Source of the DNA: Elusimicrobia bacterium CG_4_9_14_3_um_filter_62_55
Lineage (GTDB): Bacteria > Elusimicrobiota > Elusimicrobia > UBA1565
Direction of reading: 5' to 3'
Assembly (NCBI GenBank): GCA_002790095.1
Contig: PFUL01000183.1
Span: 74,287-116,565 of the forward strand
Length of the DNA: 42,279 nucleotides
The translations under genes and the position numbers were made by a program. The notes under the pieces were generated by a model. That model was not told the DNA's origin. It ran no database searches and worked only from the letters and a program-made list of their open reading frames with translations. Below, in pieces: positions 30,181-35,461 of this stretch (positions are counted from its first letter, which is position 1; each line of letters starts with the position of its first letter).

Positions 30181-31404
30181 ATGATTGGCGACACGAAAGA
30201 CCTCGACCCCCGCGCGCAAGCCGCGTCCGGCGAGGAAGAACAGACGATGGAATCCCTGCTCAAAGAGCAGGATGCGGTGGACGACAAGCTCAAGAACCGG
30301 GAAGTGCTTTGGGTCAAGGTGATCCAGTCCGGAAAGGAACAGGTTCTCGTCGACGTGGGCGAGAAGAGCGAGGCGTTCGTTTCCGCAACCGAATTTCCGG
30401 AGGGACAGATCCCCGAGCCCGGCAAGCGCATCCCGGTCCTGCTGGTCAAGCGCGGCCGCGGCGACACGCCGACGCAAATGTCGACGGCGCAGGCCCGCGC
30501 GCGGCTCGGATGGGACCAGATCGCGAAGGCTTTCGAAGAGAAAGCACGCGTGCGCGGGAAGGTCACGTCCGCGATCAAGGGCGGATTCCTCGTGGACGTC
30601 AACGGCGTTTCCGGATTCATGCCTTCCTCTCAGTCGGATCTCCGGCCGGTTCGCAAACCGGACGGACTCGTCGGGACCGGCGTGCGCTGCTACATCCTTG
30701 AGCTGAACAAGGAAAAGCGGCAAGTGATTCTTTCGCGGCGCGCGGTGTTGGAAGAGGACGCGAAGGAGCGTCGCCTGAAACTTTTGAGGGAGCTCAAATC
30801 GGGCATGGTCCGGATCGGACGCGTGATGCGCGTCAACGAGCACGGCGTTTTCATCGACGTCGGCGGACTGGACGGACTGGTTCGCAACGAGGACGTCGCG
30901 TGGAAGGACGCCGAAGAGGCCAAGAAGAAGATCAAGCGCGGGGCGAAGCTCCGCGTTCGCGTCCTCAATATCGAAGAAGAAACCGGAAAGGTTTCGCTCG
31001 GTCTCAAGCAGCTGCAGGCGCATCCGGCCGATTCGGTGCGCAAACGCTATCCCCTGAAGAAGGTCGTCGCGGGCAAGGTCGTCGAGGTTCTAAAGGACGG
31101 CGTCCGCATCGAGCTCGCGAAGGGCGACAAAGCGTTTTGCTCCGTGCGGGAATTGCAGGTCGAGGGCGGGGATCCGACGCGCGCGCGTCCGGACAAGCGG
31201 GAGATGCTTCCCCCGATCTGGCCGAAGGTCGGCGATGAGGTCTCGGGCATCGTGGTCGGCATTCTCAACAGCACCTTCGAGGTCTCCCTGTCGATCCGCC
31301 GGTTTGAAGCCATTCAGGAACGCAAAAGCGTGCAGCGCTACATGAAGGAAGCGCCGCCGCTGACGCTCGGACAGTTGTTGACGGGCGATACCGACGGGGA
31401 CTGA
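30181..31404 (+). CDS. rpsA: 30S ribosomal protein S1 (four S1 domains)
   Basis: The 407-residue protein has an acidic N-terminus and then four OB-fold S1 motifs, at about residues 40-100, 118-185, 203-275 and 290-380. Examples are GGFLVDVNGVSGFMPSS, GVFIDVGGLDGLV and TGKVSLGLKQL. E. coli S1 has six domains; four-domain forms are common in other phyla. S1 binds mRNA leaders at the ribosome. A strong Shine-Dalgarno (AGAGAGGAAGG) precedes ATG 30181, and TATAGT is seen about 30 nt upstream. The stop shares a base with the proposed start of the next gene. Confidence 0.93.
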   Translation: MIGDTKDLDPRAQAASGEEEQTMESLLKEQDAVDDKLKNREVLWVKVIQSGKEQVLVDVGEKSEAFVSATEFPEGQIPEPGKRIPVLLVKRGRGDTPTQMSTAQARARLGWDQIAKAFEEKARVRGKVTSAIKGGFLVDVNGVSGFMPSSQSDLRPVRKPDGLVGTGVRCYILELNKEKRQVILSRRAVLEEDAKERRLKLLRELKSGMVRIGRVMRVNEHGVFIDVGGLDGLVRNEDVAWKDAEEAKKKIKRGAKLRVRVLNIEEETGKVSLGLKQLQAHPADSVRKRYPLKKVVAGKVVEVLKDGVRIELAKGDKAFCSVRELQVEGGDPTRARPDKREMLPPIWPKVGDEVSGIVVGILNSTFEVSLSIRRFEAIQERKSVQRYMKEAPPLTLGQLLTGDTDGD

Positions 31405-34253
31405 TCACGATCGTTCGCCTTTCGGCGGCGCTGCTTCTGGTGTCGGCGCTGGCCGCGCCTCAGACCCGGGCGCAGGCGTTCGGCCAAAATCAAGTCAAGA
31501 ACCGGGACTTCGACTGGAAGGTCGTTTCCACCGAGCACTTTGACGTCCACTATTACGAGGACTCCGAGCCGCTGGCGCCGTTCGCCGCGGAGATCCTGGA
31601 GCGTTCCTACCGGCGAATTTCGGCCTCGCTGGGGGTTTCCTGGAAGAACGATAAGCGAAAGCCGTTTTTCCTCTACGCCTCGCTCTCGGACATGCAGCGA
31701 TCAAGCATCGTCGAGGTCGGGGACGGTACCGGTGGCGTCACCGAGGCGCTGAAGAACCGTTTCATCGTCTTCAACGACGGATCGCGCGCCTGGCTCGACA
31801 CGGTCACGACGCACGAACTGGCGCACATCTTCCAATTTCATCTGCTCATCGAGGGCTTTTGGCGTTCGGCGCGAATCCTCAAGACCATCGTCTATCCGCT
31901 GTGGATGATGGAGGGCATGGCGGAGTTCTATTCGTGGGGACTCGACGACACGGCGGGCGAGGTGCTCATTCGCGACGCGGCCACCTCCGAGGGCCTTATC
32001 CCGCTCTACAAACTCGAGCATTTCAGCCATTTGAAGCCGCATCAGGTGCGTCTCGCGTACGAGAGCGGTTCCGCCGTGCTGGAGTTTATGGAAGCCGAAT
32101 TCGGTCCCGGCAGCGTGCAAAAACTGATCCGATCGTTTGAATCCCGGTTCGAATCGAGCGCGGTGCTTTTCGAAGTGACGGGGCTCGATGTTTTTCAATT
32201 CGACCGGAAATGGCGGGAATACGCGCGCGAGCGTTGGACGCGGATCGTGAAGCGGGAGCGCCTGCTGGAGCCGGAAGCTTACGGCGACGCCCTGACCCCG
32301 ACCGATAACGACATCCCCGAGGAGAACAGCTCTCCGACGCCGACGCCCGACGGGAAAGCGGTGATCTATTTGACGACACGCTACGGATTTCCGCCGTCGA
32401 TCGTCGAGCGCGATCTCGCGAGCGGACGCGAACGGAAGCTGGTCTCGCACGACACGCGCGTCGAGAGCATCCACCTCGGAAACTTCACCAACAAATCCCG
32501 GGTGATGTCCGTCTCCCCCGATGGGCGTTGGCTGGCTTTCGCGGGAACGAAGAATCACCGTGATTCGATTTACCTGTACGACCGTGAGCGGGGACGCTAC
32601 GAGCGACTTCCCGTCCCGGGGTTTCAGGCCGTGAACCAGCCTGCGTTTTCTCCCGACGGAAAGGAGATCGCCTTTTCGGGGCTCAAGGATTCCCGCACGG
32701 ATGTGTTCGTCATCGACCGGGCCTCCGGAAAGACGCGCCGCATCACCGACGATCCGCAAGACGACCAGACGCCGGTGTTTACGCCGGATGGGCGCACTCT
32801 CATTTACAGTTCGGAGATCGAGGTTCCCGGCGGACCGATGCTGTACCAGCGGCGTCTCTACCGGGTTCCCGCCAACGGCGGGCCGGTGGAGCGCCTCGTC
32901 GATCTTCCGGGTGCGGCGCGCGACCCCGTGGTCTCCTCCGATGGGAAGCGGGTCCTGTTCTGTCTCGAGGGGGGCGGGTTCTACGAGGCCTATGAACTCG
33001 ATCTGGACACGCGGGTTTCCCGGCGGCTGACGCGCTCGATCGGAGCAGTATACACGCCCGCCTACGCGCCCGACGGAAGTCTATTTTTCGCGGGGTTTCG
33101 AAAAGGGAGCCTCCGCTTGTACCGGGGCGAGCGGTCCCGCTTCGGGGAAGAGGCGGACTCGGCGGGACTCGCGGCGGCCGGAGGGGACGGGCGAATCGTC
33201 GCCGCGTCCAGCGGCCCCGCAGTCGGCGTCGGGCGTGCGGCGAAGTCCCCGTTTACGACGGACCTCTTCTTGCCCGCGTTCTTCTACTCGTCGAACGGGG
33301 GGCTGTTCTGGACCAGCTTTTGGCAGGGCTCGGATCTGCTCGGCCGCCACCAGGCGACCTCGCTGCTCAGCTACGGGTCCGGCGCGGGCTTTCTCGATTA
33401 CGGGACTCAGTATTCCTACAACCGCTGGCGCACCGGCCTCGGAGCCGGGGCGATCGGCCGCCTGCGGCAGGACTCCTTCGACGACGCGACGGGGCTCACC
33501 GGCGACGAGAGCTCCCACCTGCAGTTTCTGCGCGCGAGCTATCCGTTTGATCGCTTTCACCGGCTGGACCTTACGGTCGTTTCGGCGACCGGGCGGCTCG
33601 ACTTTGACGGGCTCGCGAGCACCGTTCGACAAGAGGCGCGGACCTTTTCCGGCCAACTGGTGCGCGACACCGTGCGCGGGCGCTATCTGGTCGCGACCGC
33701 CGGTCAGCGGGCGCGGATCGGCGCGTCGGTGAACGCGCAAGTGCTCGGCGGAAACGTCGACCGCGATTCGTTCTTCGCCGAAGGCGTGCAGTATGTTCCA
33801 ACCGGGGGTTTGAGCGCATTCGTTCTTCGCGGGTTCGGAATCCATCAACTGGGGCGAGACCCCAATCAATTCATCCTCGGCGGGATCGGCGGGGTTCGCG
33901 GCTTCGGGCGCAGTACGGTCAACGACCTCGGGCGCACCGGGGCGATCGGGACCGCCGAATGGCGGATTCCGTTGTGGTCGAATTTGGACTATTACATGTG
34001 GTACATCTTCCCCGATTTCTACTTCAAATCGATCTCCGCCGCCCTGTTCACCGACGTCGGGCATGTCTGGGAGTCGCGGGTGCAGTTAACGAACTCCCGG
34101 TGGGCCGATTTGCGCCATTCCTACGGCGCCGGCCTACGCATTCACACCTTCATCCTGCAATTGTTCCCGCTGGTGATCCACTTCGACTACGCGCGGCGCA
34201 CGACCTCGAGCGGGGACGGGGTTTTCTACGTGTATCTAGGTCCTCTTTTCTAG
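31404..34253 (+). CDS. Gluzincin / TolB-like beta-propeller / Omp85-type barrel fusion protein
   Basis: This large outer-membrane protein has about 949 residues. The signal peptide RLSAALLLVSALAAPQTRAQA is complete only if translation starts at the ATC at 31404, which overlaps the rpsA stop. GTG 31440 is the nearest standard start but would remove the signal. Residue numbers below are from the GTG. A peptidase_MA-like domain has HELAH (125-129) and WMMEGMAEF with Glu158/Glu162. TolB/PD40 propeller blades follow (SPDGRWLAFAG, FSPDGKEIAFSG, FTPDGRTLIYSS, YAPDGSLFFAG). The last about 340 residues form a barrel with the Omp85/BamA motif GGVRGFGRS and end in the strand GVFYVYLGPLF. No POTRA domain is seen. 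It may be a surface-export or processing unit. Confidence 0.85.
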   Translation: MTIVRLSAALLLVSALAAPQTRAQAFGQNQVKNRDFDWKVVSTEHFDVHYYEDSEPLAPFAAEILERSYRRISASLGVSWKNDKRKPFFLYASLSDMQRSSIVEVGDGTGGVTEALKNRFIVFNDGSRAWLDTVTTHELAHIFQFHLLIEGFWRSARILKTIVYPLWMMEGMAEFYSWGLDDTAGEVLIRDAATSEGLIPLYKLEHFSHLKPHQVRLAYESGSAVLEFMEAEFGPGSVQKLIRSFESRFESSAVLFEVTGLDVFQFDRKWREYARERWTRIVKRERLLEPEAYGDALTPTDNDIPEENSSPTPTPDGKAVIYLTTRYGFPPSIVERDLASGRERKLVSHDTRVESIHLGNFTNKSRVMSVSPDGRWLAFAGTKNHRDSIYLYDRERGRYERLPVPGFQAVNQPAFSPDGKEIAFSGLKDSRTDVFVIDRASGKTRRITDDPQDDQTPVFTPDGRTLIYSSEIEVPGGPMLYQRRLYRVPANGGPVERLVDLPGAARDPVVSSDGKRVLFCLEGGGFYEAYELDLDTRVSRRLTRSIGAVYTPAYAPDGSLFFAGFRKGSLRLYRGERSRFGEEADSAGLAAAGGDGRIVAASSGPAVGVGRAAKSPFTTDLFLPAFFYSSNGGLFWTSFWQGSDLLGRHQATSLLSYGSGAGFLDYGTQYSYNRWRTGLGAGAIGRLRQDSFDDATGLTGDESSHLQFLRASYPFDRFHRLDLTVVSATGRLDFDGLASTVRQEARTFSGQLVRDTVRGRYLVATAGQRARIGASVNAQVLGGNVDRDSFFAEGVQYVPTGGLSAFVLRGFGIHQLGRDPNQFILGGIGGVRGFGRSTVNDLGRTGAIGTAEWRIPLWSNLDYYMWYIFPDFYFKSISAALFTDVGHVWESRVQLTNSRWADLRHSYGAGLRIHTFILQLFPLVIHFDYARRTTSSGDGVFYVYLGPLF

Positions 34254-34312: not shown

Positions 34313-35461
34313 ATGGAAAAAGCCCCATTTTACCCTCGCGTACTCTCGCTTCCCAATCTGTTGAAAGGGGGAAATCATTTCCTGTTCGGCCCCCGGTCTA
34401 CGGGAAAATCCTTCCTCATCCGGCTTCAACTGCCGAACGCCAAGGTCTATGACCTTTTGGATTCGGATGTGTTCACGCGGCTGGCGCGCAGACCACGGAC
34501 GCTCGGAGAGGAATTGGCGGAGCATAAAGGGCTCGTTGTGCTAGACGAAATACAAAAGCTGCCCGCGCTGCTCGATGAGGTCCATCGATTGATCGAGTCG
34601 CGCGGCTTGAGATTCCTGATGACGGGCTCAAGCGCCCGCAAGCTCCGGCACGGCGGCGTCAATCTTTTGGGCGGGCGCGCGCGCGAGGCGCATTTGTTTC
34701 CGCTTTGCTCAAGGGAGATCCCCGGATTCGATCTCATCACCTACCTCAACCGCGGAGGCATCCCGCGCATTCACGCCGGCCGTGACTTTCGTGAGGGACT
34801 GCACGGTTACGCGAACCTCTATCTCAGTCAGGAGGTCGTGGCCGAGGCCCTGACGCGCAAGGTGGAACAGTTCGCCCGGTTTCTGGATGTGGCTGCGATC
34901 CAGTGCGGCGAGGAGTTGAACTATGAGGGAATCGCCGGTGACTGCGGCGTCCCGGCGCGGACCGTACGCAACTATGTCGCGATTCTGGAGGATACGCTTG
35001 TCGGCTTCGAGGTCCCGGCCTTCCGGGCGACGCGGCGGCGCAAGGCGATATCGCGTTCCAAGTTCTTCTTCTTCGATATCGGCGTAGTCAACGCACTCTC
35101 CCGGCGCGGAGAGATCAAACCGCGCAGCGAGCTATTCGGGAAGTGTTTCGAGCACTTCCTGTTCTTGGAACTTCGCGCCTATCTCAGTTATCGCCGCAAG
35201 CGAATTCCGCTCCAGTATTGGCGCAGCACCTCCGGCTTCGAGGTGGACTGCGTCCTCGGCGACCGCCTGGCGCTCGAGTTCAAGTCCTCGGACGAGGTTT
35301 CGGGGCGCCATCTGCGGGGCCTCAAAGCCCTGCGGGAGGAGGGAAAAGTCAAGGATTACGCGGTCGTATCCCTCGTCCCTGAGTCCCGGCGCATGGAAGG
35401 AATCAAAATCTACCCATGGCGCAAGTTTCTGGACGCGCTTTGGGGCGACGAGTTGATCTAG
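34313..35461 (+). CDS. AAA+ ATPase with DUF4143 (stand-alone ATP-binding protein)
   Basis: The 382-residue protein has Walker A GPRSTGKS (26-33), Walker B LVVLDEIQKLP (75-84; Asp78, Glu79) and the sensor LMTGSSARKL. The DUF4143-type second half follows, with AIQCGEELNYEGIAGDCGVPARTVRNYVAILEDT as a winged helix, FFFDIGVVNAL and a C-terminal nuclease-like YWRSTSGFEVDCVLGDRLALEFKSS (E-x-K). These genes are often mobile and of unknown function. ATG 34313 is the first start after an AT-rich upstream region; a longer frame into the barrel gene is rejected. The setting suggests horizontal gain. Confidence 0.9.
   Translation: MEKAPFYPRVLSLPNLLKGGNHFLFGPRSTGKSFLIRLQLPNAKVYDLLDSDVFTRLARRPRTLGEELAEHKGLVVLDEIQKLPALLDEVHRLIESRGLRFLMTGSSARKLRHGGVNLLGGRAREAHLFPLCSREIPGFDLITYLNRGGIPRIHAGRDFREGLHGYANLYLSQEVVAEALTRKVEQFARFLDVAAIQCGEELNYEGIAGDCGVPARTVRNYVAILEDTLVGFEVPAFRATRRRKAISRSKFFFFDIGVVNALSRRGEIKPRSELFGKCFEHFLFLELRAYLSYRRKRIPLQYWRSTSGFEVDCVLGDRLALEFKSSDEVSGRHLRGLKALREEGKVKDYAVVSLVPESRRMEGIKIYPWRKFLDALWGDELI

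Follow-up and report, generated by a model that had tools for sequence, protein, structure and literature searches.

The window analysed here, a 42,279-nucleotide stretch of contig PFUL01000183.1, comes from an uncultured Elusimicrobiota bacterium. It carries rpsA, the gene of ribosomal protein S1 (30181-31404; Pfam S1, 99.2 bits), and directly behind it an open reading frame of 949 codons (31404-34250, stop codon 34251-34253), referred to below as the fusion gene; rpsA and all features of the frame lie on the + strand. Pfam, AlphaFold2 and Foldseek agreed on the domain assignment, which confirmed that the frame, as read from the genome sequence, encodes one outer-membrane protein composed of a signal peptide, a Peptidase_MA (gluzincin) domain, a six-bladed beta-propeller, a linker and a 16-strand Omp85 barrel. 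The full-length AlphaFold2 model, based on a 65-row alignment, had a mean predicted local distance difference test (pLDDT) score of 90.9 and a predicted template modelling score of 0.90. Residue numbers are those of protein P0001, and the model numbering equals P0001 + 1. The first-pass annotation, made from the sequence alone, had proposed the same combination of protease, propeller and barrel, and the proposal held: the three Pfam families all scored above their cut-offs, the barrel was predicted with 16 strands, and neither a C-terminus other than Omp85, nor a POTRA domain, nor an assembly join was found.

Domain architecture and catalytic residues

The N-terminal domain (residues 26-300; 31479-32303) was matched by Pfam Peptidase_MA_2 (PF13485) at residues 88-273 with 34.0 bits (cut-off 32.4). 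Modelled separately, it reached a pLDDT of 87.7, and Foldseek matched it to M1, M30 and M9 zinc peptidases, with a best E value of 4e-4 for the M1/M30 matches and template modelling scores by query length of 0.47-0.60 among the top ten. The domain model and these matches display the thermolysin-like catalytic fold of Peptidase MA enzymes and bear out the gluzincin domain that had been recognized from its HELAH motif. This zinc-binding and catalytic motif occupies residues 137-141 (H137, E138 and H141; 31812-31826), and HExxH was present in all 65 full-length homologues aligned, which were drawn from Elusimicrobiota and Bacteroidota. The downstream ligand had been sought in EGMAE (residues 170-174). 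A ligand glutamate does lie there, but, judging from gluzincin families, the third zinc ligand would be the first Glu, E170 (31911-31913; the Glu of 'MMEG'), and not the last, because E170 was invariant (65/65) whereas the final Glu was retained in only 56/65 homologues.

Both His and the Glu of HExxH, E170, R190, Y219 and most of a GGxTE motif were invariant in the alignment. Y219 (32058-32060; 65/65) is a candidate oxyanion-stabilizing residue, since its spacing presumably corresponds to that of the oxyanion tyrosine of M1 peptidases and lugdulysin, a correspondence of spacing and not of a residue-level structural alignment. The GGVTE motif ahead of HExxH (31731-31745), whose glycines, threonine and glutamate are all invariant, is a candidate substrate edge strand. 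Because the zinc-site residues were invariant in 65/65 sequences from two phyla, the intact catalytic residues argue for an apparently active zinc protease and predict a working enzyme; a dead protease was rejected on the same ground. As for the earlier suggestion that the protein might cleave a partner, the capacity for proteolysis is thus supported by 100% conservation of the predicted zinc site.

The propeller (residues 307-576; 32322-33131) was identified by Pfam PD40 in six stretches (95.3 bits, cut-off 20.9), by a sequence search of solved structures, in which residues 370-565 matched TolB with an E value of about 1e-21, and by Foldseek, in which TolB gave the top matches. Six blades were counted in the AlphaFold2 model (308-576, model numbering), so that the TolB type assigned at first sight stands and the count of 'at least four' blades is corrected. 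The propeller is followed by a linker of ~40 residues (577-616; 33132-33251), with a pLDDT of about 55 at residues 591-610 and a variable length of 32-103 residues in Elusimicrobiota and 55-94 in Bacteroidota. No POTRA was detected by the Pfam scan of the protein, and the model shows only the low-confidence linker between propeller and barrel. An overlooked POTRA was ruled out on these two grounds, and the propeller occupies the usual place of the POTRAs, as had been noted.

The barrel (residues 617-949; 33252-34250) was matched by Pfam Omp85 (PF01103) at residues 722-916 with 48.8 bits (cut-off 24) and by BamA and TamA in Foldseek, and its 16 strands run from 618-630 to 941-946 in model numbering. 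Its VRGF motif (residues 831-834; 33894-33905), with Arg in 62/65 and Gly in 63/65 homologues, is found in the loop that joins strands 11 and 12, the place of loop 6 in Omp85 proteins. The protein therefore has the 16-strand barrel with the sequence signature and the VRG(F/Y) motif of the Omp85 family, which the main text of Heinz and Lithgow defines by the barrel alone (PMC4104836); it lacks the POTRA, at least one of which a stricter definition includes (PMC11116518).

Conservation and distribution

The distribution survey covered 150 Elusimicrobiota genomes from 55 genera and 148 Bacteroidota genomes. Homologues were found in 44 of the Elusimicrobiota genomes, each with a single match, and the same architecture occurred across 31/55 genera; among the genomes listed without a homologue were small genomes of family f5 and several f2 genera. 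In Bacteroidota, which shared the architecture, 94 genomes had a homologue and sometimes two or three, although some matches did not cover the barrel. In a phylogenetic tree the 48 rows of Elusimicrobiota were set apart from the 14 of Bacteroidota, each phylum forming one side of a branch, which fits long-standing vertical inheritance inside either phylum. Across an alignment of 23 full-length sequences, comprising the window and 22 relatives with 46-71% identity, the three-part design was common to all and encoded in a single frame throughout. An assembly join or chimera was rejected, since the architecture recurs in one frame in many independent assemblies of two phyla.

Two further observations concern gene copies. 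A contig of 'Candidatus Obscuribacterium magneticum' (JAJAPZ010000001.1) carries the fusion gene twice, in opposite orientation and with the same rpsA neighbour (L074 and L075), which may reflect an inverted duplication or an artefact of assembly. The window's genome also encodes a second Omp85 protein, a 441-amino-acid frame with no recognized N-terminal domain (L003, G000:C125), which resembles the 'noNterm' subfamily of Heinz and Lithgow.

Genetic context and translation start

The position behind rpsA, noted in the first-pass annotation, is conserved. Among Elusimicrobiota, 47 loci had 2 kb or more of DNA ahead of the fusion gene, and in 44 of them rpsA lay upstream in the same orientation; the exceptions (L087, L090 and L093) were all Endomicrobia. 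The linkage was seen in none of the Bacteroidota loci, two pairs of which were near-duplicates. In the window's family the fusion gene begins straight after the rpsA stop codon, and the two genes are probably co-transcribed. Many other Elusimicrobiota carry between them a gene for an apparently membrane-anchored TPR protein (L045:4985-5998, L061:4991-5923, L078:5171-5998 and similar). This gene was rejected as an obligate partner, being missing from that position in the window, and an apparent rpsA-TPR fusion in L065 proved to be a run of masked bases.

Downstream, lysA follows in near relatives, mostly within a few hundred bases. In the window a gene for an AAA_14/DUF4143 ATPase (34313-35461) stands between it and the fusion gene and appears to have been inserted there, because lysA mostly adjoins the fusion gene in the other near relatives checked.

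No ATG, GTG or TTG was found ahead of the signal peptide in the window, and GTG 31440 would truncate that peptide. The start region (31396-31409) consists of a probable ribosome-binding site, GGGGA (31396-31400), and a non-canonical start codon, for which ACG 31407-31409 was the best match to the congener (L006) and CTG 31401, ATC 31404 and ATC 31410 were alternatives. The window and L006 have a common ACG 2 nt past the rpsA stop and 5-6 nt from a purine-rich Shine-Dalgarno-like motif. The relatives L007, L008, L009 and L010 have GGAG-N7-CTG, with the CTG exactly 4 nt past the rpsA stop and the codons flanking it on either side variable. We read these weak non-AUG starts (CTG or ACG), present in the window and in five relatives, as conserved usage coupled to rpsA translation, which supports co-expression of the two genes. 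The position behind rpsA had also been taken to hint at constitutive expression. The conserved linkage agrees with part of that idea, but the non-canonical start codons weaken it, as they suggest translation well below S1 levels and not simply constitutive expression. The signal peptide that follows, TIVRLSAALLLVSALAAPQTRAQA (31407-31478), was recognized from the sequence and corresponds to a low-confidence N-terminal helix (residues 1-28) in the model; its cleavage site is a predicted one.

Proposed function and alternatives

From the signal peptide, the barrel and the intact zinc site, an outer-membrane-anchored protease is the best-supported reading. We propose, with a probability of about 0.52, a periplasmic zinc metalloprotease that processes envelope proteins or serves in their quality control and resembles BepA plus a BamB-like propeller on a BamA-type barrel. 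Omp85 barrels have their N-termini in the periplasm. Given this orientation, and because PlpD, the best-studied enzyme-Omp85 fusion, retains its enzyme on that side (PMC11116518), the protease is most likely held on the inner, periplasmic face of the outer membrane. The signal peptide would export the protein, and the cell's ordinary BamA would insert the POTRA-less C-terminal barrel into the outer membrane, leaving the propeller and the gluzincin domain suspended by the flexible linker on the periplasmic side, where POTRAs would be. The propeller would probably dock a partner or substrate, for which a role as binder is plausible, and the protease would cleave, close to the barrel, envelope proteins that are unfolded or not yet fully assembled. 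The work of BepA (protease) and BamB (propeller) on a BamA-type barrel would in this way be combined in one chain. The proposal is built on analogy with BepA, a zinc protease with TPR that works on substrates at BamA and whose active-site edge strand binds LptD (PMC8423444), and with the suggestion in the main text of Heinz and Lithgow that related proteins resemble BamA-BamB fusions (PMC4104836).

In favour of the quality-control protease we counted the separate BamA of the window's genome, in which five POTRAs scored, the single match per Elusimicrobiota genome, and the TPR gene of many loci, given that BepA has a TPR domain. Several observations weigh against it. The TPR gene does not adjoin the fusion gene in the window or the window's family, and no close copy was found in the window's genome, where the best match elsewhere was a weak 26% TPR match. 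The protein is absent from about half of the sampled Elusimicrobiota genera, and its function is therefore dispensable in some lineages. Co-occurrence scans of the Elusimicrobiota genomes gave no evident link to TamB and were uninformative for LptD, because the LptD Pfam model matched in just 10/150 genomes. A bolder version, which we hold only tentatively and consider rather doubtful, is a one-chain machine in which the barrel seam would engage nascent outer-membrane proteins, the propeller would dock them and the protease would remove stalled ones, at a low ratio to S1 fixed by the weak non-AUG start behind rpsA.

The first-pass annotation had favoured a self-contained export-and-processing unit, in which the barrel translocates or inserts a partner that the propeller binds and the protease cleaves. 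The retained VRGF motif, which translocating and inserting Omp85 proteins also have, and the general role of Omp85 proteins in assembling or exporting proteins given in the main text of PMC4104836 fit this idea. It is nevertheless unlikely, since no POTRA for substrate delivery was found by Pfam or in the model, no conserved adjoining partner gene such as one for a secreted exoprotein was seen, and, as PlpD shows, not every Omp85 barrel has to act as a translocase (PMC11116518). Translocation as such is possible; nothing here supports it, and the missing POTRA, the variable linker and the periplasmic PlpD enzyme all speak against it.

Two further readings appear improbable. A self-secreting, type Vd-like surface protease, whose barrel would export its own protease and propeller to the cell surface, would agree with an N-terminal enzyme joined to an Omp85 barrel and with the original classification of PlpD as such a secretion system; however, the PlpD enzyme is periplasmic only, export of the folded enzyme was judged unfavourable (PMC11116518), and here a six-bladed propeller would have to cross as well. 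To much the same low degree, the protein might be a periplasmic peptidase for imported or nutrient peptides, with the barrel merely an anchor or pore. The domain resembles M1 aminopeptidases in Foldseek, and the invariant GGxTE would sit roughly where M1 enzymes have their GXMEN motif, but the single match per Elusimicrobiota genome and the rpsA linkage look more housekeeping than nutritional, and no adjoining transporter gene was seen in the Elusimicrobiota loci examined closely. A catalytically dead scaffold or assembly artefact is scarcely credible, as no point in its favour was found and both the 65/65 zinc-site residues and the recurrence in independent assemblies contradict it.

The usual description of Omp85 proteins centres on their POTRA domains, where substrates are received. 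In the conserved lineage found here in two phyla, a propeller and an apparently active protease replace them. In E. coli, the corresponding proteolysis and assembly step is divided between individual BAM subunits and proteases, for example BepA and DegP. If a quality-control protease is indeed tied to the barrel, it would provide a genetically simple system for the coupling of proteolysis to outer-membrane protein assembly, and relatives in culturable Pedobacter make the fusion protein directly testable.

Comparison with known systems

PlpD and FplA, the patatin-Omp85 proteins, likewise carry an N-terminal enzyme on a 16-strand Omp85 barrel; they have a lipase and a POTRA in place of the zinc protease and propeller, and PlpD is a homodimer. 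As Pfam found neither patatin nor POTRA, the window protein does not have the patatin-POTRA-barrel composition of type Vd. BepA (M48 and TPR) is similar to the predicted role in being a periplasmic zinc metallopeptidase whose edge strand captures an immature outer-membrane protein at BamA. It differs in peptidase family, in lacking barrel and propeller and in having its own TPR domain, whereas the window protein contains PF13485 instead of M48 and no TPR in the chain. BamA and BamB show an Omp85 barrel working with a periplasmic beta-propeller, as we propose here, but there the propeller belongs to a lipoprotein of its own, BamB, the barrel protein BamA carries POTRAs, and neither includes a protease. 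TolB provides the closest solved structures to the propeller by sequence and fold. The window protein showed no sign of the TolB N-terminal domain, its propeller is tethered to a barrel, and it scored 116 bits against the full-length TolB equivalog TIGR02800 (cut-off 343). No NCBIfam model spanned the fusion, the best matches being partial and below cut-offs.

PF00149 is not the gluzincin of the window protein; we take it to be the calcineurin-like metallophosphoesterase family. For that reason the 'Metallo' Omp85 subfamily, for which the main text of PMC4104836 labels PF00149 a metalloprotease domain, may be mislabelled. The closest published relatives are the WD40-Omp85 proteins, an uncharacterized subfamily named by Heinz and Lithgow in 2014 for a TolB-like propeller N-terminal to an Omp85 barrel with no POTRA (PMC4104836). 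Pfam, model and Foldseek place the same propeller and POTRA-less barrel in the window protein. The main text of that paper covers the propeller only and uses the word 'peptidase' 0 times, so that, by its description, the N-terminal gluzincin distinguishes the window protein, and the members of 2014 could either share this peptidase or lack it. A literature search for the combined architecture returned Heinz and Lithgow only and no published description of the protease. Judged by that text and by our survey, the propeller-barrel part fits a subfamily known since 2014, and the protease-bearing design appears to be a widespread and uncharacterized form of it.

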